IMG/VR virus record: IMGVR_UViG_3300050821_008340
Coordinates: 1 to 42,365 of that record
Reading direction: 5' to 3' (one strand)
DNA: 42,365 nucleotides
DNA from: a virus
Part shown: in pieces, positions 11,881 to 41,709 of the stretch
Layout of the letters: each line of letters starts with the position of its first letter
Numbering within the stretch: position 1 is the stretch's first letter
The notes under the pieces: model-generated
Database searches by the model: none
What the model saw: only the letters and a program-made list of their open reading frames with translations
Told to the model about the DNA's origin: nothing
Position numbers and translations under genes: made by a program

Positions 11881-12317
11881 TCGGGCGGCGCCGGCGCTGG
11901 CGGCTCGACCTGGCCCTCGGCGATCAGCCGCGGCAGATCGTCCTCGATCTTCATGCGGTTGAGCACCCGGCTCGACGGCTCGTGCGTCGTCATCGCCCAA
12001 TATTTGAAGCCGTCGCCGGGGTAGAGGTACTTTTTCTTGCGGCGCGCCCAGCGCTCGTCGCGGCCGTGCTGCTGGATCGCGTTGAACAGCGCGACATAGA
12101 GCTGCTCGTTTCCCGCCGGGCGCCCGCGCACGGCATAGGCGTGCGGCACCTGCGGGTTGCCGCGCTGGTCGAGCGGCTTGGCGGTGTGGAATGCGAGCTG
12201 ACCGATGATACGCAGGATCGGTGCGGCGTCGAAGGTCGGCTGCGGGAAGGGAGCGAGTTTCACGGGCGCCGGCGGCGGGTCCAGCAGGAAGGGGCTACCA
12301 AGTAATATAATACCCAT
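11877..12317 (-). CDS. Conserved-looking protein of unknown function, first gene of the leftward operon
   Basis: I do not recognise this 146-residue protein. Its C-terminal half contains RRKKKYLYPGDGFKYWAM, an aromatic and basic patch that could bind nucleic acid. The start at 12317 has GAGG five bases upstream; an ATG at 12359 is also in frame but has no such site. The GTGA overlap with the IbrA-like gene suggests coupled translation and a related function. It follows a structured leader on the same strand. Confidence 0.6.
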   Translation of the reverse strand: MGIILLGSPFLLDPPPAPVKLAPFPQPTFDAAPILRIIGQLAFHTAKPLDQRGNPQVPHAYAVRGRPAGNEQLYVALFNAIQQHGRDERWARRKKKYLYPGDGFKYWAMTTHEPSSRVLNRMKIEDDLPRLIAEGQVEPPAPAPPE

Positions 12318-12359
12318 CCGCACCTCGGGCAAATGGTTAGCGGAGCGCGGATAGAACAA

Positions 12360-12503
12360 CGGCGCCGTGGGTCTGCCCGAAGGTAACCCGCACGGCGCCG
12401 CTGTCTCCCGGTCTATTGTGAGGGGGCCAGGACCCAGTTCCCTTCCACAGGAACTGTCGCTGCCCTGAAGGGTGTAGGGTGCAACCCGAGTAATCTGGCA
12501 GCG
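12360..12503 (-). ncRNA. Structured 5' leader with three stem-loops (candidate)
   Basis: Read on the minus strand, three helices follow each other. Helix 1 pairs 12497-12503 with 12458-12464 (7 bp) and encloses a small GGGT/ACCC hairpin at 12477-12487. Helix 2 pairs 12450-12456 with 12435-12441 (7 bp, 8-base loop). Helix 3 pairs 12386-12400 with 12360-12372 (13 bp with a two-base bulge). The leader ends 43 bases before the operon's first ATG. Helix 3 is followed by TTGTTCT, a weak U-rich stretch, so attenuation is conceivable. I match it to no known riboswitch. It may instead be DNA structure at a divergent promoter. Confidence 0.45.
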
Positions 12504-12539
12504 CGCCGCGGCGCCGTCAAGCCGGCCATCCGCTTTAAG

Positions 12540-12568
12540 TTGAACTTTGGCGCATTTGCTTATATATT
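12540..12568 (+). promoter_or_regulatory. Promoter P1 of the rightward small-gene block
   Basis: The -35 element is TTGAAC (12540-12545) and the -10 is TATATT (12563-12568), with a 17-bp spacer. The -10 region, GCTTATATATTA, is shared almost exactly by six promoters in this block. The leader after the -10 differs from the others in spacing before the shared CCCTTCCACACGGAG. Confidence 0.7.
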
Positions 12569-12605
12569 AGAGCGGTACTTGTCCCTTCCACACGGAGACT
12601 TCCCG

Positions 12606-12812
12606 ATGACTTCCAAGACCGTGCGTCAATTCAGTGCCGCCGGCCCTTGCCTCACGCTTGGCGCGCTGGTGCGCGAGACCGAGCAATTTTACGTCTACAC
12701 GCCCAACCACGGGCGCGAGCGCCGCGTCGGCAAGGGCGCGGTGCACATCGAGCCGTGCTCGTCATGCCGCGATCATCCGCGGACCCAATACCCGCACGGC
12801 TACATGGACTGA
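12606..12812 (+). CDS. Small protein of unknown function with CxxC
   Basis: This 68-residue protein is the first gene after promoter P1. The ATG at 12606 follows the shared leader motif. It contains EPCSSCRDHPRTQ, a CxxC pair that might bind zinc, and is otherwise basic. An upstream in-frame ATG at 12540 lies within the promoter and is rejected. Confidence 0.65.
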   Translation: MTSKTVRQFSAAGPCLTLGALVRETEQFYVYTPNHGRERRVGKGAVHIEPCSSCRDHPRTQYPHGYMD

Positions 12813-12816
12813 CCGG

Positions 12817-13047
12817 ATGATCACCCTGCACCGCGAGCCCACCCCTCAGCAGAAGCGGCTCCAGGCTCACGTCGCCCGGCTGTCGCTCGCCCAGCTCAAG
12901 GCGATCTGCCAGCGGTTCCACGGTACAACCAACGAGGATTTCGAAGCCGTCTTCGACGCCTGCCTGGCGCGCATCGGCTCCCTGGTCAGCGAGAGCGAAT
13001 TCACCGCGTTCTGCCAATCCCTTCCCGCGGAGCAACCCAAGCCATGA
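12817..13047 (+). CDS. Small helical protein of unknown function
   Basis: This 76-residue protein has helical content (QQKRLQAHVARLSLAQLKAI) and no recognised motif. It begins four bases after the previous stop and ends with an ATGA overlap to the next gene, so it is probably cotranslated with it. Confidence 0.6.
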   Translation: MITLHREPTPQQKRLQAHVARLSLAQLKAICQRFHGTTNEDFEAVFDACLARIGSLVSESEFTAFCQSLPAEQPKP

Positions 13048-13526
13048 AAACCAAGGATCGCTGGCGCCCGCTGCAGCGCGCCAACATCGTGCAGCCGCTG
13101 ACCGCCGCCGATGTAGCCGAGGCGATGCTGATCACCGGCGCCGACGAGGCCACCGCGCGCAAGGCGCTCGAAGACGAGGTGTCGGGCGTCGAATACTGGA
13201 TCAACGATCTCTACCAGGTCGCCCTGCGCCGGCTCGACTGCCAACCGCCGATGATCCACCTCAACATCAGGCGGCGCGACGGCAAGGTCATCTTCCGCGA
13301 CTGGCGGCACTTCATGCGGATCAAAAACCAGCTCGTCGGTGCTGAGTGCGAGGCGGTCGAGATTTACCCAGCCGAGTCGCGGCTCAACGATACCTCGAAC
13401 AAATATCACCTGTGGTGCTTCAGCGATCCGACGTACCGCCTGCCGTTCGGCCTGACGCGGCGCGATGTCGTCGCCGATGACGGCGGCGCCAAGCGGCCGG
13501 GGCACCGGCAGCGGCGGATCACATGA
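13044..13526 (+). CDS. Conserved phage protein (DUF7694-like)
   Basis: The 160-residue protein contains RDGKVIFRDWRHFMRIKNQL, then VEIYPAESRLNDTSNKYHLW. This is a block I recall from many phage and prophage proteins of unknown function, tentatively the DUF7694 family. The N-terminal 60 residues are helical. It lies in a four-gene translationally coupled run (ATGA overlaps on both sides). Confidence 0.65.
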   Translation: MKTKDRWRPLQRANIVQPLTAADVAEAMLITGADEATARKALEDEVSGVEYWINDLYQVALRRLDCQPPMIHLNIRRRDGKVIFRDWRHFMRIKNQLVGAECEAVEIYPAESRLNDTSNKYHLWCFSDPTYRLPFGLTRRDVVADDGGAKRPGHRQRRIT

Positions 13527-14143
13527 AAACGCCTCGCCCCGACATCGTCGAGCGCCGGCCCGCCGGCAGCCGCGAGGAAATCGCGGAAATCCTCGCCGAG
13601 CAGTTGGCGCGCGACGATCTCAGCGTGATCCAGTTCGGCGAGGGGCCCGAGCGGATCATCGTCGCCGGCCCGCAGACCCGCCACTGCGGCGACTGCGAGT
13701 TCTGCTGCTCGGCGGCCGGGATCAACCAACTTGAAAAGCCGCCGATGGTGCGCTGTCGCTATCTCGCCAAGCGGCCGGCCCGCGGCTGCGGGATTTACCC
13801 GGATCGACCCGAGGCCTGCGCCAAGTTCAACTGCGCTTGGCTGCTCGGCAATTTCGACAACCGCTACCGGCCCGACAAGATCGGCGCCTATGTCGCCTTC
13901 TTCCTCTACGAGGGCGACTTCTATGCCGTCGTGCAGGTGGACAGCCGGCGCCTCGACAAAAAGCGGCTGAGCGAGATGGTCGCGATGCTGCACCGCCGCG
14001 TGCCCGAGGTCCGCATCCTCTACGACGACAAGCACGGCACCGTCCTGCGCTGGGGCGAGAAGCCGCTCAAGGTGCTGATCGGCGAGCGCGCGCCGGGCGA
14101 GTACGAGGAGCTACCGTTACTGATCCTCGACGAGGAGGGGTGA
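13523..14143 (+). CDS. YkgJ-type cysteine-cluster protein (1)
   Basis: This 206-residue protein has a CxxCxxCC cluster (HCGDCEFCCSAAG) followed by RCRYLAKRPARGCGIYPDRP and ACAKFNCAW. This is the arrangement of YkgJ-family zinc- or iron-binding domains. The C-terminal half is a mixed alpha/beta region of unknown role. A second YkgJ-like protein is encoded at 34897-35271. The function of phage members is unknown; metal binding is inferred from the cysteines. Confidence 0.75.
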   Translation: MKTPRPDIVERRPAGSREEIAEILAEQLARDDLSVIQFGEGPERIIVAGPQTRHCGDCEFCCSAAGINQLEKPPMVRCRYLAKRPARGCGIYPDRPEACAKFNCAWLLGNFDNRYRPDKIGAYVAFFLYEGDFYAVVQVDSRRLDKKRLSEMVAMLHRRVPEVRILYDDKHGTVLRWGEKPLKVLIGERAPGEYEELPLLILDEEG

Positions 14144-14144
14144 G

Positions 14145-14639
14145 ATGCCGCTCACACTTCAGGAATGGCTCGATTTCAATATCGCCTACCTGCTGGCGGA
14201 AGTCGTCAAGGTGCCGGCCGGCAAGGATTTCCCGATGACGTTCTACTTTGTGACCGGCACCAGCGAGATTTACTTGCGCCATCCAACCTCTGACGATCGC
14301 GATCTCGAAATCGCGCTCTTCCGCGGCATGATGAAAGCTGCCGGCGCGGTGCAATACGCGATCATCTCGTCTGCCTGGGTGGTCGCCCTGCGCGGCGCCG
14401 AGGTGCCAGCGGCCCGCGCGCTGATGGAGCGCGAGGGCACCGGGACCAAGTACAAGGATCGGCGCCAGGAGGTCTACCTCGTCGTCGCCGGCGACAAGGA
14501 TGAAACCCTGCAGGCCTACTTTGACGTGCGCCGTGACTACAAGGGCAAAATCCGCGAACTGATCCGCCGCAACACCGGGCCGCTTTTCTCGGAAGGCCGG
14601 CTGATCGACCTGCTGATCAGCCGCGAGGGCAAGCACTAG
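14145..14639 (+). CDS. Protein of unknown function, end of first rightward operon
   Basis: This 164-residue protein has a predicted alpha/beta fold without known motifs. YKDRRQEVYLVVAGDKDETL is its most distinctive part. It begins one base after the previous stop. An operator-like site and the next promoter follow, so it probably closes the operon. Confidence 0.6.
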   Translation: MPLTLQEWLDFNIAYLLAEVVKVPAGKDFPMTFYFVTGTSEIYLRHPTSDDRDLEIALFRGMMKAAGAVQYAIISSAWVVALRGAEVPAARALMEREGTGTKYKDRRQEVYLVVAGDKDETLQAYFDVRRDYKGKIRELIRRNTGPLFSEGRLIDLLISREGKH

Positions 14640-14659
14640 AATGATCGCGGAGGGGCCTG

Positions 14660-14671
14660 GTTATTAGTTAC
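14660..14671. promoter_or_regulatory. Operator-like site GTTATTAGTTAC
   Basis: This is a member of the five-copy GTTATTAGTAAC set with one change. It lies between the gene end at 14639 and promoter P2, 44 bases ahead of the -35 element. Confidence 0.5.
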
Positions 14672-14701
14672 AGTATTCGCCGAAAATAAGTTCCAAATAA
14701 T

Positions 14702-14744
14702 ACTGCCGCGGATATTGTATTCGCGGCAGTTGTGCTTATATATT
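14702..14744 (+). promoter_or_regulatory. Promoter P2 with hairpin around the -35
   Basis: The -35 is TTGTAT (14715-14720) and the -10 is TATATT (14739-14744), with an 18-bp spacer. The -35 lies in the loop of a perfect 9-bp inverted repeat, ACTGCCGCG (14702-14710) and CGCGGCAGT (14722-14730). After the -10, ACTTGTCAGCAGCGAC and then CCCTTCCACGGAG form the leader of the gene at 14784. Confidence 0.75.
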
Positions 14745-14783
14745 ACTTGTCAGCAGCGACGATCCCTTCCACGGAGCCTTCAG

Positions 14784-15023
14784 ATGAACCCCACCCGCAA
14801 GCCTCGGAGCTCGAATGCTGAGCGCCAAGCGCGGTTTCGCGCCAAGCAAGCCGGCCAGAACGGCTTTGTTCAGTGCTGTGTGTGGATACCCGAGGCGGCG
14901 ATGGCGGACATGCAGTTGCAGGCGGAAATCCTGCGCAAGTACCCGCACCTGACCGTCGGCCCGCTGCGCGACCCCCACACCGGCAAGTTCGTCGCCCTGC
15001 GCGAGAAGCGCTCGGCGGCCTAA
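14784..15023 (+). CDS. Small basic protein of unknown function
   Basis: This 79-residue protein has an N-terminus, RKPRSSNAERQARFRAKQAG, that resembles the short basic helices found at the start of some phage ribbon-helix-helix-like proteins. The remainder (EAAMADMQLQAEILRKYPHL) is helical. A ribbon-helix-helix regulator is possible but not shown. The start follows promoter P2 and the shared leader. Confidence 0.6.
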   Translation: MNPTRKPRSSNAERQARFRAKQAGQNGFVQCCVWIPEAAMADMQLQAEILRKYPHLTVGPLRDPHTGKFVALREKRSAA

Positions 15024-15028
15024 CCCGC

Positions 15029-15047
15029 GCCGGGGCGGTTCCCCGGC
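15029..15047 (+). terminator. Hairpin between small genes (GCCGGGG/CCCCGGC)
   Basis: A perfect 7-bp stem with a 5-base loop lies right after the TAA at 15021-15023 and before the leader at 15057. There is no T-tract. The sequence around it (TAACCCG, stem, CATC) recurs at 17328-17354, so the unit was copied with the leader. It may stabilise or attenuate transcripts. Confidence 0.45.
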
Positions 15048-15078
15048 ATCTCCCCTCCCTTCCACACGGAGCAGTCAA

Positions 15079-15270
15079 ATGTCAGCCTCCAAACGCGCCC
15101 CCCGGCCGGCCACCTTCGAGGCCTACCGCGAGGCGGTCGATATGGCCGTGCTCGTCAAGTGCGGCCTCTCCCTCGACGATCTCCCCGATGTCGCCCTCGT
15201 CGACTGGTTCGACGATGGCGTGAGCGTCACCAGCGCGGCCAGCCGCGCCATCCGCAATGCCAAGGATTGA
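15079..15270 (+). CDS. Small protein of unknown function
   Basis: This 63-residue acidic protein (LVKCGLSLDDLPDVALVDWF) starts after the shared leader at 15057 and has no TATATT promoter of its own. No motif is recognised. Confidence 0.55.
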   Translation: MSASKRAPRPATFEAYREAVDMAVLVKCGLSLDDLPDVALVDWFDDGVSVTSAASRAIRNAKD

Positions 15271-15274
15271 GGCG

Positions 15275-15922
15275 ATGGCACGCACCGACAACCGGCGCGC
15301 CGCTACGCCCGCGGAGGCGGTTCAGCTCGAAACCCTGCGCACCGCCAGCGTGCCGCCGCGCCAGGCGGAATTCGCCGGCAGCCTGATCAATCAGGCCAGC
15401 GGCGGTCTGACGACCCGGCAATGGTGGTGGGTCGGCGAACTGGCCCGCCAGGTGAGCGGCGAGGAGTCCGCGCCCGCGATCACCAATGTCGGCTCGGTCA
15501 AGGGCATCGTCGACTTGCTCGACCGCGCCAAGGCCCATCTCAAATATCCGGCCCTGCTGGTGCGCGCCAACGATCGCCACATCAGGCTCAACATCGCCGG
15601 ATCGAGCGCGCAAGCGCCGGGCACCATCAACGTCTGCTCGGCGGTCCGCGACAATGCCGGGCAGCGGCGCTGGTACGGTCGCATCACAGTCGAGGGCGAG
15701 TACGAGCCCTCGCGCCGCATCGAGCCCGCCATGCAGACCGCGATCGCCACCGCCCTTGCGGCGATGGCGTCGGACCCGGCCAAGGCCGCCAGCGAGTACG
15801 GGCGGCTGACCGGCCATTGCTGCTTCTGCACCCTGCCATTGACCGACCCGCGGTCCACCGCAGTCGGCTACGGCAAGATTTGCGCCCGCAATTACGACCT
15901 GCCCTGGGGGACCCCGAAATGA
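15275..15922 (+). CDS. Protein with C-terminal Cys4 zinc finger (DUF6011-like)
   Basis: This 215-residue protein ends in TGHCCFCTLPLTDPRSTAVG followed by YGKICARNY. The spacing of cysteines matches the DUF6011 zinc finger found in phage and plasmid proteins. The middle (VRANDRHIRLNIAGSSAQ) is beta-rich. The ATG at 15275 has GAGG just upstream. It overlaps the CtrA-like gene by ATGA, so the two are probably translated together. Confidence 0.65.
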   Translation: MARTDNRRAATPAEAVQLETLRTASVPPRQAEFAGSLINQASGGLTTRQWWWVGELARQVSGEESAPAITNVGSVKGIVDLLDRAKAHLKYPALLVRANDRHIRLNIAGSSAQAPGTINVCSAVRDNAGQRRWYGRITVEGEYEPSRRIEPAMQTAIATALAAMASDPAKAASEYGRLTGHCCFCTLPLTDPRSTAVGYGKICARNYDLPWGTPK

Positions 15923-16617
15923 CCCGCGTTCTGATCATCGAGCCCACCGCCGAGTTGGCGGCCGACATCGCCCGCCATCTGGCACAGCACGGCATGATGC
16001 CCGACGTGATCGACTTCGCCGACGAGTTGGAGCGCGGCGGGCTCGACTACGATGCAGCGGTGCTGAACCTCGCCCTCGACGGCCCGGCGGTATTGCGGCG
16101 CCTGCGGGCGGCCGGCAAGCGCATCCCGGTCATCGCCCTGACGACAGGGCAGAAGAGCCCCTCGGCGCGCATCATCGAGGCGCTCGACGCCGGCGCCGAC
16201 GACTGCCTGGTGATGCCGTTTCTCGGCCCCGAGCTCGCCGCCCGGCTGCGGGCAGTGGTGCGCCGCAGTGTCGGGCTGGCCGACAACATCGTGGTGACCG
16301 GGCGCCTGGCGGTCGATCTCGGCCGGCAGACGGTGGCGGTTGACGGCAAACCGGTGAACCTCTCGCCCAGGGAGTTCGGGCTGCTCGCCGCACTGTGCCA
16401 GCGCCAGGGCAAGATCGTCCCGAAGGATCAGCTTCTCGCGCAGATGTACCAGCTCGATGAAGAGCCCGAGGCTGGCCTCAAGATCATCGACGTGATGGTC
16501 TGCCATATCCGCAAGAAACTCGGCCCGGCGCGCGAGTCTCTTGCCACGGTGTGGGGCCGCGGCTACCGGCTGGTTGAGCCCGCGGCCGTGGCGATCCCGC
16601 TGCAGGTGGCGGCGTGA
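15919..16617 (+). CDS. CtrA-like response regulator with degenerate receiver
   Basis: This 232-residue OmpR/PhoB-type protein has a receiver at residues 1-115 and a winged helix at 125-220. The DNA-binding half closely resembles CtrA, the alphaproteobacterial cell-cycle master regulator. LKIIDVMVCHIRKKL and TVWGRGYRL correspond to CtrA LKIIDVFICKLRKKL and TVWGRGYVL. The receiver has lost its chemistry. The acidic pocket EDD is E8-P9-T10, the phospho-acceptor position is N50 (AVLNLAL) and the conserved Lys of KPF is M99 (MPF). It should therefore bind DNA without phosphorylation, possibly at host CtrA sites or as a competitor. It is coupled to genes on both sides (ATGA, GTGA). A SciP-like gene lies 2.3 kb downstream. 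CtrA sequences were recalled from memory. Confidence 0.85.
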   Translation: MTRVLIIEPTAELAADIARHLAQHGMMPDVIDFADELERGGLDYDAAVLNLALDGPAVLRRLRAAGKRIPVIALTTGQKSPSARIIEALDAGADDCLVMPFLGPELAARLRAVVRRSVGLADNIVVTGRLAVDLGRQTVAVDGKPVNLSPREFGLLAALCQRQGKIVPKDQLLAQMYQLDEEPEAGLKIIDVMVCHIRKKLGPARESLATVWGRGYRLVEPAAVAIPLQVAA

Positions 16618-16808
16618 TTACCGCGGGGCTGGTCCTGAGCGGCCTGCTGTTGGGCTGGGTCCTCGGCCGGCCCCGCCCCCAGGCAACGCGGCGGCCCCAG
16701 CCGCCGCCCTTCTCCTGGCCCGCCAGCATCGCCACGGCCCTGGCCATCGCGTTTGTCGGCTCGTGGCTGGTGCACGCCATCATCGCCTTTGGCTCAGCGC
16801 GCCCGTAA
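16614..16808 (+). CDS. Small membrane protein with two transmembrane segments
   Basis: This 64-residue protein has hydrophobic segments at about 4-17 and 38-58, separated by a Pro/Arg-rich cytoplasmic-type loop. The GTG start overlaps the CtrA-like stop as GTGA. Function is unknown. Confidence 0.6.
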   Translation: MITAGLVLSGLLLGWVLGRPRPQATRRPQPPPFSWPASIATALAIAFVGSWLVHAIIAFGSARP

Positions 16809-16823
16809 CACTGGAGCACTGCA

Positions 16824-17027
16824 ATGGAACCGGACTTCGCTTTCGAGATGTTCAACGTCACCAAGACCATCGTGCGCCCCCTGACCCAGCGGGCGCTCGA
16901 CTGGCTCAACGCCAACAGCTTCGGCACGCCGCTCTCCGAGGGGCGGGTGATGATCGAGACCAACCAGGCTCAAGTGCTGATCGTGATCATGCACGAGGAG
17001 GGATTTGAACTAATAAACGCCAACTAA
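16824..17027 (+). CDS. Small protein of unknown function
   Basis: This 67-residue protein (NVTKTIVRPLTQRALDWLNA) has GGAG upstream of its ATG and is the last gene before promoter P3. No motif is recognised. Its stop region holds ACTAATAAAC, a poor partial match to the operator-like site. Confidence 0.55.
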   Translation: MEPDFAFEMFNVTKTIVRPLTQRALDWLNANSFGTPLSEGRVMIETNQAQVLIVIMHEEGFELINAN

Positions 17028-17040
17028 TACGCGCGCGGTA

Positions 17041-17071
17041 TTGAATATTCGCCGGCCTATGCTTATATATT
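17041..17071 (+). promoter_or_regulatory. Promoter P3
   Basis: The -35 is TTGAAT (17041-17046) and the -10 is TATATT (17066-17071), with a 19-bp spacer. It uses the shared GCTTATATATTACTTGT and the CCCTTCCACGGAG leader. It drives the first of three secreted-protein genes. The flanking inverted repeat is weak here. Confidence 0.7.
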
Positions 17072-17108
17072 ACTTGTGCAGAGCGACAACCCTTCCACGG
17101 AGACCAAG

Positions 17109-17330
17109 ATGACGATCCTTAAAACCCTCACCGCAGCCGCCGCTCTTCTTCTCGTCGCGAGCGCGGCACACGCCGAGCTGACTGAGACCATGAAGGACTG
17201 CCTCGCCGTCGCGGTAGCGGCCCAAGTCAGCGGATCGGAGGCTATGCAATCCCCGCCGGCCTTGCTTTCCCGCTGCCATGTCAGCGATCAGCGCGCCGGG
17301 GTTGCTTACGTCCTCGAACTGCTGAAGTAA
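17109..17330 (+). CDS. Secreted small protein, signal-peptide family member 1
   Basis: This 73-residue precursor has a Sec signal peptide (LKTLTAAAALLLVA followed by SAAHA, cleavage after about residue 22). The roughly 51-residue mature part has two cysteines (KDCLAV, SRCHVS), fit for one disulfide in the periplasm. Nearly the same signal peptide precedes two unrelated mature sequences at 17375 and 17836. Function is unknown; acting in the periplasm, for example in superinfection exclusion, is conjecture. Confidence 0.7.
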   Translation: MTILKTLTAAAALLLVASAAHAELTETMKDCLAVAVAAQVSGSEAMQSPPALLSRCHVSDQRAGVAYVLELLK

Positions 17331-17335
17331 CCCGA

Positions 17336-17351
17336 GCCGGCTTCCCCCGGC
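17336..17351 (+). terminator. Hairpin GCCGG/CCGGC between secreted-protein genes
   Basis: This 5-bp stem sits directly after the stop at 17328-17330 in the same context as the hairpin at 15029-15047 (TAACCCG before, CATC after). There is no T-tract. It is probably part of a duplicated intergenic unit. Confidence 0.4.
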
Positions 17352-17374
17352 ATCCCCTTTCCACGGAGATCAAG

Positions 17375-17647
17375 ATGACAGCCCTCAAGACCCTGACCGC
17401 AGCCGCCGCCCTCCTCCTCGTCGCCGGCGCAGCGCATGCCGAGACGATGCCTAAGTGGCAGGGGATCGACTATGCCCACGGCGCCAAATGCGTGCACCAG
17501 TTGGACGGCAGTTGGATCTGTTCCGACGGAGAGCAATACAACGGCGCCGGGCGGCCTTTGAACGGGATTTGCAACGCAGCCGACGAATGCCACCAGCCGG
17601 AAATTCCGGCCTGTTGGGCCAAGGGATGCAGAAAGCAGATGCACTGA
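17375..17647 (+). CDS. Secreted Cys-rich protein, signal-peptide family member 2
   Basis: This 90-residue precursor has a signal peptide almost identical to that of member 1 (LKTLTAAAALLLVAGAAHA). The mature part of about 68 residues has six cysteines (KCVH, WICS, GICN, ECHQ, ACWA, GCRK), probably three disulfides. It is unrelated to member 1 beyond the leader. The start follows the leader at 17355. Confidence 0.7.
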   Translation: MTALKTLTAAAALLLVAGAAHAETMPKWQGIDYAHGAKCVHQLDGSWICSDGEQYNGAGRPLNGICNAADECHQPEIPACWAKGCRKQMH

Positions 17648-17683
17648 CCCTCCTCACCCCGCCCCTTCCACGGAGAACCAGCG

Positions 17684-17839
17684 ATGAAGATCATCAAGTT
17701 TATGGTCGCCACTGACGACCCCGCGATCATCGAAGAGCTCAAGGATGCCATCGTCAGCAAACTCAAGGAGCTTGAAGTCGAGGCTCGCTGGGACGATGGC
17801 GAGAGCAACGAGGCGCCCCTTCCACGGAGCACTCGATGA
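17684..17839 (+). CDS. Small acidic protein, 51 residues
   Basis: The protein begins MKIIKFMVATDDPAIIEELK and continues as one acidic helix. It starts after the leader at 17663. Its last codons contain the next copy of the leader motif (APLPRSTR encoded by CCCTTCCACGGAGC), so the ribosome-binding site of the following gene is inside this gene. ATGA overlap links the two. Confidence 0.6.
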   Translation: MKIIKFMVATDDPAIIEELKDAIVSKLKELEVEARWDDGESNEAPLPRSTR

Positions 17840-18198
17840 ACACCCTCAAGACCCTGACCGCATCCGCCGCTGTGCTGCTGGCGCTCGTCGGCACCGCCCA
17901 GGCGCAGGTCAACTGGGGCGACAAAGATTACTGTCGCCTTGCGTCCGCGAATGTTTGGCCGAATATCCTCGACGCCTTCGAGAACGAGATGCGCAGTCGG
18001 ACCTATCAGGCGTGCATGGCGGGACACCCGCTAATGCAAAACCCGGCGCAAAGCCCGCCGTCGCAACCAGCCGACTCGCCCGCCGTGCAAGCCTGTGTCG
18101 ACGCTAATATCCCCGACGGCCACGTGTCGGGCGCCTACATCAGAGATGTCTATGCCGCCTGCCAAGCGTCGCCGTCATGGCGCGGGTATGCGCGCTGA
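17836..18198 (+). CDS. Secreted protein, signal-peptide family member 3
   Basis: This 120-residue precursor has the third version of the shared signal peptide (LKTLTASAAVLLALVGTAQA). The mature part has four cysteines (DYCRLA, QACMAG, QACVDA, AACQAS). The C-terminal half (CVDANIPDGHVSGAYIRDVY) looks like an independent helical unit. Periplasmic location is inferred; function is unknown. Confidence 0.7.
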   Translation: MNTLKTLTASAAVLLALVGTAQAQVNWGDKDYCRLASANVWPNILDAFENEMRSRTYQACMAGHPLMQNPAQSPPSQPADSPAVQACVDANIPDGHVSGAYIRDVYAACQASPSWRGYAR

Positions 18199-18226
18199 TG
18201 GGCCGCGCCATTGCCGCGGCAAAGAA

Positions 18227-18604
18227 ATGACCACTCTCGCCGCTCAACTGCTCCACATGGCGGCGCTGGTACCGGCGCCGGCCGCGGGGCCTAAGACCGA
18301 CCAGCTGCTGGCGCTCTGGCATCGCTGCGTGCTCAACCGCACGCCGTGGCCGCAGGTGCGGCACCAGGCCGTCAGCCAGCCGGGCGAGCTCAGGTTTCTG
18401 CGCTGGCTCCTCGCCCACCAGGCGCCGGGGATCCTCGCGCATGCCTGCCAGAGCGCGGACTCGCGCGCGGCGGCAGCAGCGGGCGAGCTCGCCCGGCGTG
18501 CCGACCAGGCGCGCCAGCTACTCGCCAGAAAGGGCGGTGGCGGGACTTTTGGTGCGGCGATGTTCCGCGCCGATCAGCGCTGGTATGCGGCCCTTCCGGT
18601 CTGA
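18227..18604 (+). CDS. Protein of unknown function
   Basis: This 125-residue Ala/Arg-rich helical protein (AAAAAGELARRADQARQLLA) has no known motif. The start is uncertain. ATG 18227 lacks a good Shine-Dalgarno, and ATG 18188 overlaps the previous gene by 11 bases. A 6-bp hairpin (GCAGCG/CGCTGC) follows in the gap to 18690. Confidence 0.5.
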   Translation: MTTLAAQLLHMAALVPAPAAGPKTDQLLALWHRCVLNRTPWPQVRHQAVSQPGELRFLRWLLAHQAPGILAHACQSADSRAAAAAGELARRADQARQLLARKGGGGTFGAAMFRADQRWYAALPV

Positions 18605-18689
18605 GACCGAAACCGGGTGAGAAAGGCGCCCGGTCGCAGCGTGAGGCGCTGCCTGACGATGGTCAGTCCCTTCCACAGAGTACACCCCA

Positions 18690-18875
18690 ATGGACAATGT
18701 CATCACCAAGGTCGAGGGCGACACGCTCACCATCACCATCGACCTGACGCATCCCGGCGCTCTCTCGAAGAGCCAAAAGACGACGCTGGTGGCCTCGACC
18801 CACGGCAGCTTGGCGATCACCTATGCCAAGCGCAGCGGGATCACCCTGTCGCTCAACGTCATGGCGCCGAAGTGA
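18690..18875 (+). CDS. Small beta-rich phage protein of unknown function
   Basis: This 61-residue protein reads VEGDTLTITIDLTHPGALSK, then VASTHGSLAITYAKRSGI. The pattern recurs in small phage proteins that I recall only as hypothetical. It starts after the leader at 18668 (here CCCTTCCACAGAG) and is joined to the SciP-like gene by GTGA. Confidence 0.6.
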   Translation: MDNVITKVEGDTLTITIDLTHPGALSKSQKTTLVASTHGSLAITYAKRSGITLSLNVMAPK

Positions 18876-19072
18876 GCGGCGAGCGCTGGACGCCGCAGCG
18901 CAAGCGGGCGGTGCTGGCCGAGATTGATGCCGGCCTCGACACCGGCGAGGCCTGCCGCCGCTGGGCAATCTCGACCGAGGAACTGGTCTCGTGGCAACGC
19001 AACTATGAGCACCGCGGCGTCGCCGGACTGGCGCAAAAGGGTCTGGCGCTGCGGGTGAGGGCCGAGGCGTGA
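18872..19072 (+). CDS. SciP-like (DUF1153) protein, truncated N-terminus
   Basis: This 66-residue protein aligns through its length with SciP/DUF1153, the small alphaproteobacterial protein that binds the CtrA DNA-binding domain and blocks its activation of target promoters. Matching features are RWTPQRKRAVLAEIDAGL, GEACRRWAISTEELVSWQR and HRGVAGLAQK, against SciP RW, EEACERY, FLSWQ and RHGLAGL. The phage protein begins at the RW and lacks the roughly 27 residues that precede it in Caulobacter SciP. A short transposase-like HTH is the main alternative, since DUF1153 and such HTHs look alike. The GTG start overlaps the previous stop (GTGA). The presence of a CtrA-like gene in the same block strengthens the call. 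Confidence 0.75.
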   Translation: MSGERWTPQRKRAVLAEIDAGLDTGEACRRWAISTEELVSWQRNYEHRGVAGLAQKGLALRVRAEA

Positions 19073-19299
19073 GCGTTTATCGCTGGACGGTCAGCGGCAC
19101 CGCGGCAGACGGCCAGACCTGGGAAACCTCGGGGACCGTCGAGTCGGTGCAGCCCGGCAATTTCCCCGACGTGTGCGGGGTCGCCCTTCAGCAGTCCTTC
19201 ATGGACCTGACCCGCGGCCGGGCGGTGTTCGGCCAACCGGGCGTCGGGTGCCGCGGCCCGTACAAGATCACCCGGTTGCTGGTCGAGATCGAGCCATGA
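19069..19299 (+). CDS. Small protein of unknown function
   Basis: This 76-residue beta-rich protein (YRWTVSGTAADGQTWETSGT) ends in KITRLLVEIEP. The GTG start overlaps the SciP-like stop as GTGA, so it is in the same translational unit. A strong terminator follows directly. Confidence 0.55.
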   Translation: MSVYRWTVSGTAADGQTWETSGTVESVQPGNFPDVCGVALQQSFMDLTRGRAVFGQPGVGCRGPYKITRLLVEIEP

Positions 19300-19303
19300 G
19301 TAT

Positions 19304-19340
19304 TCGCCGGCGGGTGGCAAGTGCCCGTCGGCGATTTTTT
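19304..19340 (+). terminator. Intrinsic terminator
   Basis: The arm TCGCCGGCGGG (19304-19314) pairs with CCCGTCGGCGA (19324-19334), 10 of 11 bases, with a 9-base loop. T6 follows at 19335-19340. This is the clearest rho-independent terminator in the block and ends the operon that carries the SciP-like gene. Confidence 0.85.
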
Positions 19341-19356
19341 CGATTTTAGACTAGGC

Positions 19357-19368
19357 GTTATTAGTAAC
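19357..19368. promoter_or_regulatory. Operator-like site GTTATTAGTAAC
   Basis: This consensus copy of the five-site set lies between the terminator and the -35 of promoter P4, three bases from the -35. A protein bound here would cover the promoter. Confidence 0.55.
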
Positions 19369-19371
19369 GGC

Positions 19372-19401
19372 TTGAATATTCGCGCCGAGTGCTTATATAT
19401 T
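19372..19401 (+). promoter_or_regulatory. Promoter P4
   Basis: The -35 is TTGAAT (19372-19377) and the -10 is TATATT (19396-19401), with an 18-bp spacer. The leader ACTTGTCAGCAGCGACGAT is identical to that of P2 over its length, and is followed by CCCTTCCACACGGAG. A short CGGC/GCCG stem brackets the -35. Confidence 0.75.
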
Positions 19402-19443
19402 ACTTGTCAGCAGCGACGATCCCTTCCACACGGAGTACCTACA

Positions 19444-19947
19444 ATGACCCCGAAAGTTTTGCAGAGCGATCCCTGGCGCCGCGTCGGCGAAATGACCGTG
19501 AGCGGCCTCATCGCCGATCTCCCGAAGACCCGCGGCAATTACGCCTACATCGTCGACGGCACCGAGCTCGCCTATGTCGGCGTCGCCCAGAGCCTCTACA
19601 ACCGCAACAATGGACACGGGCGGCGGCTGGCTGACCCGGACCTCAAGCACGCCGCCAAGGCGATCTATGCCGAGATGCGCCAGGCGATCGCCGACGGGCA
19701 CAAGATCAGCCTGTGGGTCCTGGTCGAGCCGCAGGTCACGTACAACGGCCGGGTGATCGACGGCCGCCATAGCGTCGAGGCGGATTACATCACCCGCTTC
19801 GAGCCGCGCTGGAATATCCTCGGCGTCCGCGGCCGCCGCCATGCGGGTTTTTCGGATGGTGCCCGCAAGGCCAATGCCAGCCGCACGCCGGAACAGCGCA
19901 GCGCTGCTGCAATCAAGGCCAGTGCTCGCCGCAGGATCGCCGCCTAA
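19444..19947 (+). CDS. GIY-YIG-like endonuclease with NUMOD3-like tail
   Basis: This 167-residue protein has an N-terminal GIY-YIG pattern: NYAYIVDG for the first strand, then LAYVGVAQSLYNRNNGHG, giving the Y-V-G and the catalytic-type Arg. A central ISLWVLVEPQVTYNGRVIDG and E-containing VEADYITRFEPRWN could supply the conserved Glu. The C-terminus (DGARKANASRTPEQRSAA) resembles the NUMOD3 DNA-contacting repeat of homing endonucleases. It would cut DNA and may be a mobile or exclusion nuclease. Its location in a monocistronic unit under P4 fits a self-standing homing gene. No interrupted gene was noticed next to it. Confidence 0.6.
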   Translation: MTPKVLQSDPWRRVGEMTVSGLIADLPKTRGNYAYIVDGTELAYVGVAQSLYNRNNGHGRRLADPDLKHAAKAIYAEMRQAIADGHKISLWVLVEPQVTYNGRVIDGRHSVEADYITRFEPRWNILGVRGRRHAGFSDGARKANASRTPEQRSAAAIKASARRRIAA

Positions 19948-19964
19948 AGCATCGCGCAAGTAAT

Positions 19965-20007
19965 TCGCCGGCTTGTGTTGTAATTCGTCGGCGAATGCTT
20001 ATATATT
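19965..20007 (+). promoter_or_regulatory. Promoter P5 with hairpin around the -35
   Basis: The -35 is TTGTAA (19978-19983) and the -10 is TATATT (20002-20007), with an 18-bp spacer. The -35 lies between the arms ATTCGCCGGC and GTCGGCGAAT (9 of 10 pair). The CCCTTCCACACGGAG leader is at 20026. Confidence 0.75.
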
Positions 20008-20048
20008 ACTTGTCGATAGCGACAGCCCTTCCACACGGAGACTTCACC

Positions 20049-20801
20049 ATGAGTGACGAACGCGAGAAGATTGCCCGCCGCATCCGCGGGCTGCTGAACC
20101 TGAGCGCCGATCAGAGCGTGACGGAACAAGAGGCGATCGAGGCCGCCCGCAAGGCGCGCGAGTTGATGGACAAGTACCGGGTCACGATGACGGACGTCGA
20201 GATCAAGGCCGAGCCGGTCGAGCTCGACGAGGTTAAGTCGGCCTACGCGACCACCGCCCCGGTCGATTACTGCCGCCCCGGCATCATGGCCTATTGCGGC
20301 GTCAAGCTGTGGTTCGAGAGCCACCGCGGAGCGGTGCGCCGGGTCAAAATTCTCGGGCTAAAAGCCGACACCGACATGGCGGGCTGGCTTTACACGATGC
20401 TTCAGACTGCCTTGGAGTCCGACTGGCGGGCCTACAAGAAAACGCCGGCCTGGCGCGAATTGACGGGCGGCGGCAAGCGCAGCGCCACGCAATCGTTCTT
20501 CGTCGGCATGGCGGTCAGGATCAACGAGCGGCTGCTCGAACTGGCCGAGGCGCTCGAACCGGTCGCCAAGACGGCCAGCGGCACCGCACTGGTCGTGATC
20601 AAGAACCAGCTCGTCGACGCGGCCTTCGCGGAGTTGGACCTGCACTTTCGCAAGTCGCGCGGGCTGAGTATCCGCGACGGCGGCGCCTACCATGCCGGCA
20701 AGGCGGCGGGTGACCGGGTGAACCTCAATCGGCCGATCGGCGCGGCAGCGGCGGCGCGGCGGCTGGCGACGACCCCCAAGCGGGTTACTCGCGTTAAGTA
20801 A
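20049..20801 (+). CDS. DUF2786/DUF7168-type protein
   Basis: This 250-residue protein begins with IARRIRGLLNLSADQSVTEQ, then EAIEAARKARELMDKYRV, the N-terminal DUF2786 helix pair common in phage and plasmid proteins. The remainder matches the partner domain (DTDMAGWLYTMLQTALESDW, then SFFVGMAVRINERLLEL). The C-terminus is basic. The family's function is unknown. It is a single-gene unit under P5. Confidence 0.75.
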   Translation: MSDEREKIARRIRGLLNLSADQSVTEQEAIEAARKARELMDKYRVTMTDVEIKAEPVELDEVKSAYATTAPVDYCRPGIMAYCGVKLWFESHRGAVRRVKILGLKADTDMAGWLYTMLQTALESDWRAYKKTPAWRELTGGGKRSATQSFFVGMAVRINERLLELAEALEPVAKTASGTALVVIKNQLVDAAFAELDLHFRKSRGLSIRDGGAYHAGKAAGDRVNLNRPIGAAAAARRLATTPKRVTRVK

Positions 20802-20820
20802 GTATTCGCGCAACACATCT

Positions 20821-20861
20821 CGGGCGCTGGATTGTAATTCAGCGCTCGATGATTATATATT
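20821..20861 (+). promoter_or_regulatory. Promoter P6 with hairpin around the -35
   Basis: The -35 is TTGTAA (20832-20837) and the -10 is TATATT (20856-20861), with an 18-bp spacer. The flanking arms are GGGCGCTG and CAGCGCTC (one mismatch) with the -35 in the loop. The leader CCCTTCCACGGAG is at 20881. Confidence 0.75.
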
Positions 20862-20901
20862 ACTTGTAAGCGCAAGCAATCCCTTCCACGGAGTACCTGA
20901 C

Positions 20902-21144
20902 ATGACCGACGAGACCTATGGCGTAATGCCAGGCTCGGGCAATTTCCGCCGCATCCTCGCGGCGATGCTGGCGGCAGCGGCCCTCGCGGGCGCGGTGCCG
21001 GCGATCGCCGCACCGGAGCAAGGGCGGCCCTACTCCTGCCGGCTGCTCGACGACGAGCAACGCAAGTGCGCCTTCGGGCAGTGCGACGCGCGGACGATCG
21101 AGCGGCTGCGCAAGGAATGCCTGCGCGATGGCGGGCGGCCGTGA
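20902..21144 (+). CDS. Secreted or membrane-anchored small Cys protein
   Basis: This 80-residue protein has a hydrophobic segment at about 20-37 (ILAAMLAAAALAGAVPAIAA) ending in an AxA site, so a signal peptide with a long n-region is likely. The mature part has four cysteines (YSCRLL, RKCAFG, QCDART, KECLRD). It may be functionally related to the secreted proteins at 17109-18198, but the leader is different. Confidence 0.6.
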   Translation: MTDETYGVMPGSGNFRRILAAMLAAAALAGAVPAIAAPEQGRPYSCRLLDDEQRKCAFGQCDARTIERLRKECLRDGGRP

Positions 21145-21329
21145 GCGCGCGGCGCCAGGTCGAACCGCCGGCCCCGCCGCACAAGGCGCCCTGGCGGATC
21201 GTCGCAACCTACACCATCGCCGACATCGAGGATGCCCGCAGCCATCGCGATCAGATCCGCGCGGGGCGGGTTGAGGCCCAGATGATCGTCGCCGGCGACT
21301 CGGTGTTCGTGCAGATCAGGAACCGCTGA
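21141..21329 (+). CDS. Small protein of unknown function
   Basis: This 62-residue protein (WRIVATYTIADIEDARSHRD) has a simple alpha/beta composition. The GTG start at 21141 overlaps the previous stop (GTGA). It ends in a TGATG overlap with the next gene. Confidence 0.55.
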   Translation: MSARRQVEPPAPPHKAPWRIVATYTIADIEDARSHRDQIRAGRVEAQMIVAGDSVFVQIRNR

Positions 21330-21538
21330 TGGCCCGCACCGTCCTGCCCTGGCTGATGGTCACCGACGTGGCGAGCGCGCAGACCTATGTCATCGAGCCT
21401 ACCAGGCGGGGCAGTGCCAAGCTGCGCGCCTCGCGGATGGGCGCCACCGACCGCTCGGCGGACTCGCCGGTCAGGTGGCGCGAAGTCCCTCTCTACATTC
21501 GCCGCTCGGCCAGGGAGGCGCTGAGCCCGAAACGCTGA
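21329..21538 (+). CDS. Small basic protein of unknown function
   Basis: This 69-residue protein (RRGSAKLRASRMGATDRSAD) has a TGATG start overlap. No motif is recognised. Confidence 0.5.
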   Translation: MARTVLPWLMVTDVASAQTYVIEPTRRGSAKLRASRMGATDRSADSPVRWREVPLYIRRSAREALSPKR

Positions 21539-21575
21539 CCGCCCGCCTCCCCTTCCCTTCCACACGGAGCCACCA

Positions 21576-21788
21576 ATGATCGCCAGGATCATGTTCTACA
21601 ACCACGCCCGCAAAGTCTTTCACCGGATCGAGGTCGACGCGCCCGATTGGCGGCGCGGCGAGTTCGTCGCCCGCGAGGCGGCCGATTTCTGGCGCGCGCC
21701 CTACTTCACGATGGGCCGCGAGACCCTGCTCAACACGACCCACCATTGCATGCACGACGACGAGCTCGGGCGCCGGCTGGCCGCTTGA
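21576..21788 (+). CDS. Small protein of unknown function
   Basis: This 70-residue protein (MIARIMFYNHARKVFHRIEV) has two neighbouring His residues and one Cys (TTHHCMHDDE), a possible metal site. It begins after the last copy of the shared leader, at 21555. Confidence 0.55.
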   Translation: MIARIMFYNHARKVFHRIEVDAPDWRRGEFVAREAADFWRAPYFTMGRETLLNTTHHCMHDDELGRRLAA

Positions 21789-21837
21789 CGCGCGGGCGCG
21801 CGAGTCCTGCAAAATCGACAAAAGAATGGAGCCCACG

Positions 21838-22218
21838 ATGAAAGGCACGACCCTGATCTACCGGCCGGGCGAGGCGGCCCCGGAAGCGCAGACCCACACC
21901 GAGAGCCCGAGCCTCGAATTTCTCCAGGCGGTCGTCGGCGGCTACATCGAAGCGGTCCCCGATTGGGGCACCATCGAGATCGACGGCAAGGTGTTCCCCT
22001 GCGTCGTCTACTGCAACGAAGAGGGCAAACTGACCGAGGGCATGCTGGTGAACCACCGGGCCACGATCCTCTGGGATCAGGCGCTGCGGCGGGTGGTGCA
22101 CGACGGCAAGCCGGCCTACCCCAACGGCCTGCTGCGGGCCGATGGCAACCCGATCGATATGCTGTTGGGGCCGATCATCGTGGTGACCGGCGATCCCGAA
22201 TTCATGCGGTCGCTATGA
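21838..22218 (+). CDS. DUF3846-like protein
   Basis: This 126-residue protein contains LEFLQAVVGGYIEAVPDW, then CVVYCNEEGKLTEGMLVNHR. This matches DUF3846, a family common in phages and plasmids with unknown function. I choose ATG 21838 (GGAG six bases upstream) over ATG 21826. It overlaps the next gene by ATGA. Confidence 0.7.
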   Translation: MKGTTLIYRPGEAAPEAQTHTESPSLEFLQAVVGGYIEAVPDWGTIEIDGKVFPCVVYCNEEGKLTEGMLVNHRATILWDQALRRVVHDGKPAYPNGLLRADGNPIDMLLGPIIVVTGDPEFMRSL

Positions 22219-22451
22219 GCAGGCGCGAGCAATATTCGGTCTACCTGTTTTTCCCCGACGGGTCGTCGCATTGCGAGCGGGAATTCGTCAGCGACAAGGA
22301 GGCGGTCGAGCTGGCGGCCGAGTGCTCCAGGCGGCCGGCGGCGATCGCCGGGTTAATTCGGCGGATAATCATCACCGATGCCGGCGACGACACGGTGTTC
22401 GAATGGAAATTCGGCGAGGGCGTCACATTTCCGCCGCGCGAGCCCGAATAA
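22215..22451 (+). CDS. Small conserved-looking phage protein, last of the rightward block
   Basis: This 78-residue protein reads SRREQYSVYLFFPDGSSH, then IIITDAGDDTVFEWKFGEGV. I recall similar small phage proteins of unknown function. A hairpin and the convergent gene at 22600 follow. Confidence 0.6.
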   Translation: MSRREQYSVYLFFPDGSSHCEREFVSDKEAVELAAECSRRPAAIAGLIRRIIITDAGDDTVFEWKFGEGVTFPPREPE

Positions 22452-22468
22452 ATTGATTAAACGAGGGT

Positions 22469-22485
22469 GCGGGAATAGCTCCCGC
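22469..22485 (+). terminator. Weak terminator-like hairpin
   Basis: GCGGGA (22469-22474) pairs with TCCCGC (22480-22485) around a 5-base loop, followed by ATCTTC rather than a T-run. It lies between convergent transcription units and may end rightward transcription. Confidence 0.45.
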
Positions 22486-22599
22486 ATCTTCAATTACGCA
22501 GCATCGTTGAGGTTGCTGCTCGCCCTCGTCAAGCAAAAAACTACACCACCCCGCGGTTTAATAAATCGAATTTCGCGAATATCGCGGGCGATTATTTTC

Positions 22600-23190
22600 T
22601 CAGCCGGTTGACGTCTTGCTCGGTAGCGGCAGGTGCAGCGCCAGATAATCCAGCGCCCGGCGCAAATCGACCACAAATTCGGGAAAGTCCTCGCCGTAAA
22701 CATTGTCGATGGCGGCGAGTGCGGCCCGCCACGAGGGGCTGCCCAGCGCCCGGCGGAAGCGGGCGAGTGCGCGGCGGGCGCGCTCGGCACCGGGCACGGC
22801 AAAATCGGCGAGCACCTGGCCGCTATGGGCGGCGGTGAGGATATTGCGCCAGGCGCCGGCGGGCGAGGCCTCGGTCAGACCGAACCCGAGGCGCACCAGG
22901 CGCACCAGTGCGGCGAATTCGCGGCTGGCGGTGTATTGCTCCGGGTCGATGACGCCGTGGCCGTAAAGTATGCCCAAGAGATCGTCGGGCAGATCGGAGT
23001 CGCCGGTCGCGGCCAGCCGGCGATGGCGTAGCTCAGGGGTCCCGCGATCGAGAAACGGGGCACGCTCGGCGAGCGTGGTTGCGCGCCGCTTGGCGTTGGC
23101 CTTGCGCGGACGGCCGCGGCGATCGCGGCGAGCCTTCAGTTTGCGGCGGGTCACAACCGGGTGTTTCACGTGAAAGCGCGCTGGCGTCAA
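22600..23190 (-). CDS. Basic N-terminus protein of unknown function, parS-like site in its start
   Basis: This protein of up to 196 residues has a very basic N-terminus (RRKLKARRDRRGRPRKANAK) suited to DNA binding and a helical body. The pattern FLDRGTPELRHRR is one I associate with alphaproteobacterial prophage proteins of unknown function. The start is unclear. The longest frame begins at a TTG (23190) without a Shine-Dalgarno. The good AGGAGG nearby serves an ATG at 23233 in another frame, which is open to 23033 (66 codons). A frameshift or a leader peptide is possible. The parS-like palindrome encodes FHVKH here. Confidence 0.55.
   Translation of the reverse strand: MTPARFHVKHPVVTRRKLKARRDRRGRPRKANAKRRATTLAERAPFLDRGTPELRHRRLAATGDSDLPDDLLGILYGHGVIDPEQYTASREFAALVRLVRLGFGLTEASPAGAWRNILTAAHSGQVLADFAVPGAERARRALARFRRALGSPSWRAALAAIDNVYGEDFPEFVVDLRRALDYLALHLPLPSKTSTG
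23162..23177. promoter_or_regulatory. parS-like palindrome
   Basis: The plus strand reads TGTTTCACGTGAAAGC, 14 of 16 identical to the bacterial consensus parS TGTTTCACGTGAAACA. One half-site is perfect and the other differs at its outer bases. It would recruit the host chromosomal ParB. It lies at the 5' end of the gene 22600-23190. Confidence 0.6.
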
Positions 23191-41013: not shown

Positions 41014-41709
41014 ATGCGAAAATTCGGACCCATCGCGACAATCGCGGCGCTGGCCTTGGCGGCCGGGCTGTCCGCCCCGGCCGACGCCGGGATCCTCAAT
41101 TGCACCGTTTTCGTCGACAACGTGCAGCAAGGCGCGTGTACGCAGAGCGCCACCGGGCTGCTGACCTTCAGCTCCTCGACGATCCCGAATTTCTCGGCGG
41201 TCGGTCTGGTCGCCACCGGCGATCCGCTGGTCGCCAGCCCCTCTCTCAGCTCGGTGACCCTCGATGTCAGCAGCGCCCCAACCTTCACCGGGCCGCATAC
41301 ACTGACGCTCGACGTCTTTCAGACCGGCATCAGCGCGCCGATCGGCACGCAGGTGGAGAGCACCTTTACGGTCAACAATCTGATCGGCGTTCCGGGGCCT
41401 GCCACACTGAGCGATTTCTTCAATGGCACCAGCAGCACGCTTGGCACCTTGTTAAGAACCTCGACCTTCCCGGTGGGCACGACCAACGCCACAACCGGCC
41501 CGTTTCTCGACACTGCCGGGCAGGTGATCACCGCCGACGCGCACCAGTTCTCGATCACCTTCTTTGCGCCCGGTCAGAGCGCCAATGACACGATCCAGCT
41601 CATCGGGACCCAGGTCCCCGAGCCGGCCTCGCTCGCATTGCTCGGCAGCGCCCTGGTCGGGTTTGGCCTGTGGCGCCGCCGGCGTTCACAGCCGCCCGCC
41701 GCCGCGTAG
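41014..41709 (+). CDS. PEP-CTERM secreted protein
   Basis: This 231-residue protein has a signal peptide (IATIAALALAAGLSAPADAG, cleavage at about 25) and a beta-rich body. It ends in a complete PEP-CTERM sorting tail, VPEPASLALLGSALVGFGLW followed by RRRR. Such proteins are exported, processed by exosortase and usually placed in extracellular polymer. It is unusual in phage DNA, so it may be host sequence beyond the phage end or cargo. The beta-helix gene downstream is also secreted. Confidence 0.85.
   Translation: MRKFGPIATIAALALAAGLSAPADAGILNCTVFVDNVQQGACTQSATGLLTFSSSTIPNFSAVGLVATGDPLVASPSLSSVTLDVSSAPTFTGPHTLTLDVFQTGISAPIGTQVESTFTVNNLIGVPGPATLSDFFNGTSSTLGTLLRTSTFPVGTTNATTGPFLDTAGQVITADAHQFSITFFAPGQSANDTIQLIGTQVPEPASLALLGSALVGFGLWRRRRSQPPAAA

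Follow-up and report, generated by a model that had tools for sequence, protein, structure and literature searches.

The locus examined here raises the question of whether a phage with a CtrA-like gene also carries its own form of SciP, and what such a protein would do; among alphaproteobacterial phages, use of host CtrA and carriage of GcrA or CtrA copies are known. The GcrA homologue in phiCbK-like phages (PMC3556154) and the CtrA of roseophage RDJL Phi 1 (HM151342 annotation) are, like the gene described below, alphaproteobacterial phage copies of host cell-cycle regulators, although the regulators differ. In Caulobacter, SciP represses CtrA-activated promoters and contacts CtrA (PMC4287350). 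The window, by which we mean the whole stretch of DNA analysed (IMG/VR record IMGVR_UViG_3300050821_008340, 42,365 bases), comes from a phage whose hosts are probably alphaproteobacteria. A preliminary description had proposed that a 66-residue DUF1153-like protein lacking the SciP N-terminal part lies 2.3 kb downstream of the CtrA-like gene in the same block, and that the two form the inhibitor and activator of a coordinated takeover. The features on which the argument turns are the following.

14705 to 14750, plus strand: further copy of the promoter repeat, preceding the run in which the CtrA-like gene lies
15919 to 16617, plus strand: response regulator of CtrA-like type, its receiver degenerate (NCBIfam CtrA 7e-45, under the cut-off; phrog_731 1.5e-36)
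17032 to 17077, plus strand: promoter repeat TTGAAT ... TATATT ahead of the gene run 17109-19299, its CTTATATATTACTTGT core at 17062
18690 to 18875, plus strand: upstream gene of 61 aa with its own CCCTTCCACaGAG leader; no Pfam match
18872 to 19072, plus strand: SciP-like protein (DUF1153 core), GTG start, 66 aa
19069 to 19299, plus strand: downstream gene of 76 aa, GTG start; no family match
19304 to 19334, plus strand: strong intrinsic terminator-like hairpin with a T-run (13-pair stem, 9 G-C pairs), closing the SciP-like operon

The open reading frame at 18872-19072 is a real gene and more than a chance frame. Its GC content by codon position (0.74/0.55/0.86) resembles that of the rest of the phage's genes, its codon log-likelihood exceeds that of all five other frames, and it overlaps its neighbours by 4 bp at either end, its start with the stop of 18690-18875 and its stop with the start of 19069-19299. 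The start codon lies 4 residues ahead of the conserved RW motif. The 66-residue frame proposed earlier was thus recovered at its exact coordinates, with the support of these coding statistics and of the DUF1153 and SciP profiles, and its distance from the CtrA-like gene also held (2254 bp from the stop at 16617).

Among Pfam models the protein matched DUF1153 best (PF06627; 1.2e-11 over profile positions 27-79 of 87), its 45 bits exceeding the curated threshold of 23.5. The top NCBIfam model was SciP (NF051866; 46.5 bits, 3e-12, positions 31-82 of 90), short of the 100 bits set as curated equivalog cut-off. HTH_Tnp_1 (PF01527) gave 32.1 bits (1.4e-7), above its own cut-off and 13 bits under DUF1153, and IS481 gave 0.0017. 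In this comparison with short transposase helix-turn-helix (HTH) families, which the preliminary description had suggested, DUF1153 and SciP were best and IS3 far behind (0.015, 14.6 bits), so the IS3-type best match that would have pointed away from SciP was not obtained. The OrfA HTHs of IS3, IS481 and IS66 (HTH_Tnp_1) resemble the window protein in being trihelical and in the weak cross-match, but a genuine insertion-sequence OrfA used as a control reversed the ranking, with 90.9 bits for HTH_Tnp_1 and no match to DUF1153. A transposase-type HTH identity was rejected on the profile ranking and this control. It is highly improbable that the gene is decaying or is a functionless fragment of a transposase-type HTH. 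The protein is the most diverged phage copy compared (DUF1153 45 bits, against 65-82 in other short phage copies), the alignment places a one-residue deletion between its helices 1 and 2, and its HTH_Tnp_1 match passes that model's cut-off; against this, the frame is intact, overlaps its neighbours and has the codon usage of real genes, several other phage DUF1153 proteins give the same weak cross-match to HTH_Tnp_1, and no OrfB or DDE transposase catalytic gene stands beside it, the neighbours being the 61-aa and 76-aa genes. The results support assignment of the 18872-19072 protein as a DUF1153 core, a SciP homologue rather than a full SciP.

Which parts of SciP are kept was scored at positions conserved among 18 host SciPs. 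Across the HTH core (RW..RRKAEVV...GGLL...ACxRYxL..EEF..WQ), 16 of 30 such positions are retained and several others are conservative. The N-terminal segment VIGPxGxPLTxxDLPxPxT retains 1 of 10 (the start Met only), confirming the absence of this part, and the C-terminal tail GLRxTRxQxYR 1 of 7. Like the SciP of Caulobacter and other Alphaproteobacteria, the protein therefore has the core elements RW..xRK...V....G, EACRR[WY]xISxEE[LF]xSWQR and G..GL and scores above the Pfam cut-off for DUF1153; unlike SciP, it is phage-borne and short (66 aa against about 90-100), has neither VIGPxGxPLTxxDLPPPxT nor TRxQxYR, has one residue fewer separating helices 1 and 2, and falls below the NCBIfam equivalog cut-off. 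Judged from its sequence, it is of DUF1153 descent, with the N-terminal segment and nearly all of the tail lost and the trihelical core kept. An AF2 model of the 66-aa protein predicted a three-helix HTH (residues 8-19, 24-31 and 35-47; pLDDT ~87). A structure search with the model placed SciP 2jrt at Z 4.9, level with numerous unrelated HTHs, and was rejected as evidence of identity, since it matches generic HTHs and so common a fold does not discriminate. A PDB profile search with the family alignment returned two entries only, 2jrt and 2oa4.

Two loss-of-function alleles of Caulobacter sciP, T24I and T65A (PMC4241560, PMC7591256), were located by counting along the conserved host sequences. 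The equivalent of T24 appears to fall in the PLTxxDLP segment, which is missing from the window protein, and CtrA antagonism therefore cannot be assumed. The equivalent of T65 would be where the third helix begins, corresponding to S34 of the window protein, and serine at this position is common in host SciPs. For a protein that has the HTH and not the N-terminal segment, regulation through DNA binding is an easier reading than full antagonism of CtrA; direct contact with CtrA, as made by host SciP, appears less likely because the N-terminal part is missing.

DUF1153 genes were found in about a dozen viral records, several of them trimmed to the core. The closest sequence to the window protein is a phage copy in G197 (56% over 50 aa), followed by host SciPs, with at most 48% identity in the core. 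Two SciP-like genes are present on the 57-kb contig G197, one of them sharing its reading frame with a long open frame downstream; the contig also encodes a short winged-helix protein of the CtrA type (features at L053:9355-9792, L055:13451-14812 and L054 about 18700-18918). A relative of the window phage itself, G198 (IMGVR_UViG_3300036828_001020, 69 kb), has a terminase 60% identical to that of the window and many other genes in common. Its SciP-like gene belongs to the same phage lineage and a similar gene region, adjoining a homologue of window 20902-21144 with a homologue of 13523-14143 close by; unlike the window protein, the G198 copy has 83 aa, with a partial N-terminal segment (ELPDP) and a TRLQQFR tail, and G198 has no CtrA-like gene. 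Identity between the two copies is only 45% over the core, so their separate acquisition is conceivable. Core-type copies also occur in G196 (116 kb; L048, L240, L241), on the same contig as a GcrA-like gene, and in G248 (88.5 kb), and a core-only copy lies within an apparent head-tail connector operon in G249. A search for GcrA within the window found none. The single clear homologue found among named phages was XM05_97 of the isolated Erythrobacter phage XM05 (PV416404), annotated as hypothetical, with 64 aa of core and tail; like the window protein it has a DUF1153 core beginning at R-Y/W and comes from a phage of an alphaproteobacterium, but it keeps an RVTRTQTYR tail.

Several further viral records (L043-L047) encode near full-length SciP and may represent prophages or their edges, or include host DNA; our conclusions on lineage rest on G198, G197, G196 and XM05. 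Plasmid matches were dismissed as kin, being DUF1153 proteins of host replicons and not close, and a tree of the 50-aa core was not used, as it gave no well-supported placement and paired the window row with a long-branch HTH (85/57). Scans of the viral collection with single proteins found no SciP-like homologues and alignment queries were needed, one profile alignment being too diverse for use in scanning. The open-access papers searched held no report of a phage SciP, and one may exist elsewhere.

The promoter-like repeats of the window consist of TTGNAT or TTGTAA, 17-18 nt, TATATT and the CTTATATATTACTTGT core; in some of them the -35 region is overlapped by an inverted repeat. The core is identical at 14735, 17062, 19392 and 19998 and has one mismatch at 20852, and a variant of the repeat lies near 12560; these near-identical repeats likely represent one phage promoter class. 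The repeat at 14735 precedes the run with the CtrA-like gene, and that at 17062 the run with the SciP-like gene. Because the repeat at 17062 stands between the two genes, each probably has its own transcription unit, with a promoter of the same kind, in a common rightward block; the earlier placement of both in the same block stands as regards the common rightward block, but they probably do not form one operon. A ribosome-binding leader of the form CCCTTCCAC(A/AC)-(G)GAG occurs at 12 plus-strand sites from 12440 to 21555, 11 of them preceding an ATG (genes between 12600 and 21600). The SciP-like gene has no leader of this type and 18690-18875 has its own, so the SciP-like gene is probably read through translational coupling from 18690-18875. 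An Rfam search of 12000-23000 gave no match. The run after 17062 also includes three consecutive small secreted-looking proteins (17109-17330, 17375-17647 and 17836-18198) with nearly the same signal peptide (MTxLKTLTAxAAxLL..A.AHA) and apparently unrelated mature parts.

The most likely role of the SciP-like protein, on these comparisons, would be to regulate promoters of the SciP/CtrA type or of the phage as a small DNA-binding protein. In its fuller form, to which we give a probability of about 50%, this reading holds that the protein is a minimal SciP-derived HTH transcription factor, which would be made from rightward phage transcripts through translational coupling, bind DNA by its SciP-type HTH and repress or re-time SciP/CtrA-type host promoters, and possibly phage promoters too. 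The DNA sites reported for SciP are GCGNC-N5-GNCGC or GCGAC (PMC4287350). Of the 5 promoter repeats, 4 contain GCGAC, which at 5.7 per kb across the window is indistinguishable from background; the palindromic motif was not found near the window promoters, and the window has no exact CtrA box (TTAA-N7-TTAA). A purely phage-internal regulator, its HTH repurposed for phage promoters such as the promoter repeats and the host circuit abandoned, is possible though doubtful. The loss of both SciP ends, the existence of several near-identical phage promoters open to joint regulation and the G249 copy in its apparent head-tail connector operon are in keeping with it, but no specific site was identified, the GCGAC in the repeats being at background level, and window-type promoter repeats were not found in the G198 cluster.

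The identification of the neighbour at 15919-16617 as CtrA-like was upheld by the NCBIfam CtrA and phrog_731 matches and by alignment (40-42% identity to host CtrA). CtrA was the best match of this protein in each of five genomes (41-42%), and the CtrA-type winged helix motifs KIIDV..C..RKKL and TVWGRGY are present. In the receiver, IEDD is replaced by IEPT (acidic pair DD to PT), the phospho-acceptor D51 by N and TKPF by VMPF (K to M); the D51 and acidic pocket of a phosphorylatable receiver are thus missing and the protein is probably phosphorylation-independent. T170 of host CtrA is replaced by P, the one feature hinting that the phage version might be spared. In Caulobacter CtrA, T170A is described as a gain of function and T170I as a partial loss of function, and P at this site therefore does not predict immunity to SciP. 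Structure prediction of the CtrA-like protein without an alignment gave pLDDT 38 and was useless.

The earlier proposal of a conserved activator/inhibitor module was not sustained. Searching the whole G198 record revealed no Trans_reg_C protein, and DUF1153 was missing from all 48 other viral records that had either a CtrA-like gene or a related terminase, many of these records being fragments. Trans_reg_C was absent from 26 terminase relatives, where many records are fragments and each absence is weak evidence, and from the 152-kb XM05 genome; among about 14 DUF1153-bearing viral records examined, many of them fragments, only the window and G197 had it, and in G197 at least about 15 kb separates the SciP-like from the CtrA-type genes. 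In the window phage the pairing is real, but related phages do not conserve it. As G198 has a SciP-like gene without a CtrA-like gene, the former is a gene of the phage lineage for which the CtrA-like partner is dispensable, and it would act independently of the phage CtrA-like protein; its history in the lineage is most likely independent of that of the CtrA-like gene.

These results bear on whether the SciP-like protein blocks RNA polymerase recruitment at host CtrA promoters while the phage CtrA-like protein is immune, the pair replacing host control, which we consider unlikely. SciP core homology, the position of both genes in one rightward block behind near-identical promoter repeats, a CtrA-like protein with P at the T170 position and no phosphorylation pocket, and the presence of both kinds of gene in G197 are all consistent with such antagonism. 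They are countered by the absence of the N-terminal segment where T24I appears to lie, by G198 with its SciP-like gene alone, by the 0/48 result and by the opposing effects of the T170 alleles, which make P no predictor of immunity. The pairing is not conserved and the genes are far apart in G197, and a coordinated takeover, as first suggested, is therefore unproven; it is possible, with a low to quite low probability. Quite improbable, too, would be a two-part rewiring of CtrA control, in which a phosphorylation-independent CtrA-like factor drives its own regulon and a trimmed SciP shuts down the host's CtrA promoters while leaving the phage factor unaffected, both expressed from the same promoter class.

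What is new here is that phages, apparently alphaproteobacterial, recurrently carry trimmed SciP cores, the isolated XM05 included. A phage-borne trimmed SciP would add a negative arm to the copies of the CtrA circuit in phages. Since it occurs naturally without the two ends, such a SciP core would also reveal which part DNA binding or CtrA binding needs, and XM05, as an isolated phage, makes direct testing of a trimmed SciP possible.

Two observations were made elsewhere in the window. The protein encoded at 19444-19947 weakly matches a phage endonuclease family (phrog_1111, 4.3e-5), and 41014-41709 encodes a PEP-CTERM-type protein with VPEPASLALLGSALVGFGLWRRRR near its end and a partial match in G198 (63% over 35 aa; L229:3031-3135).
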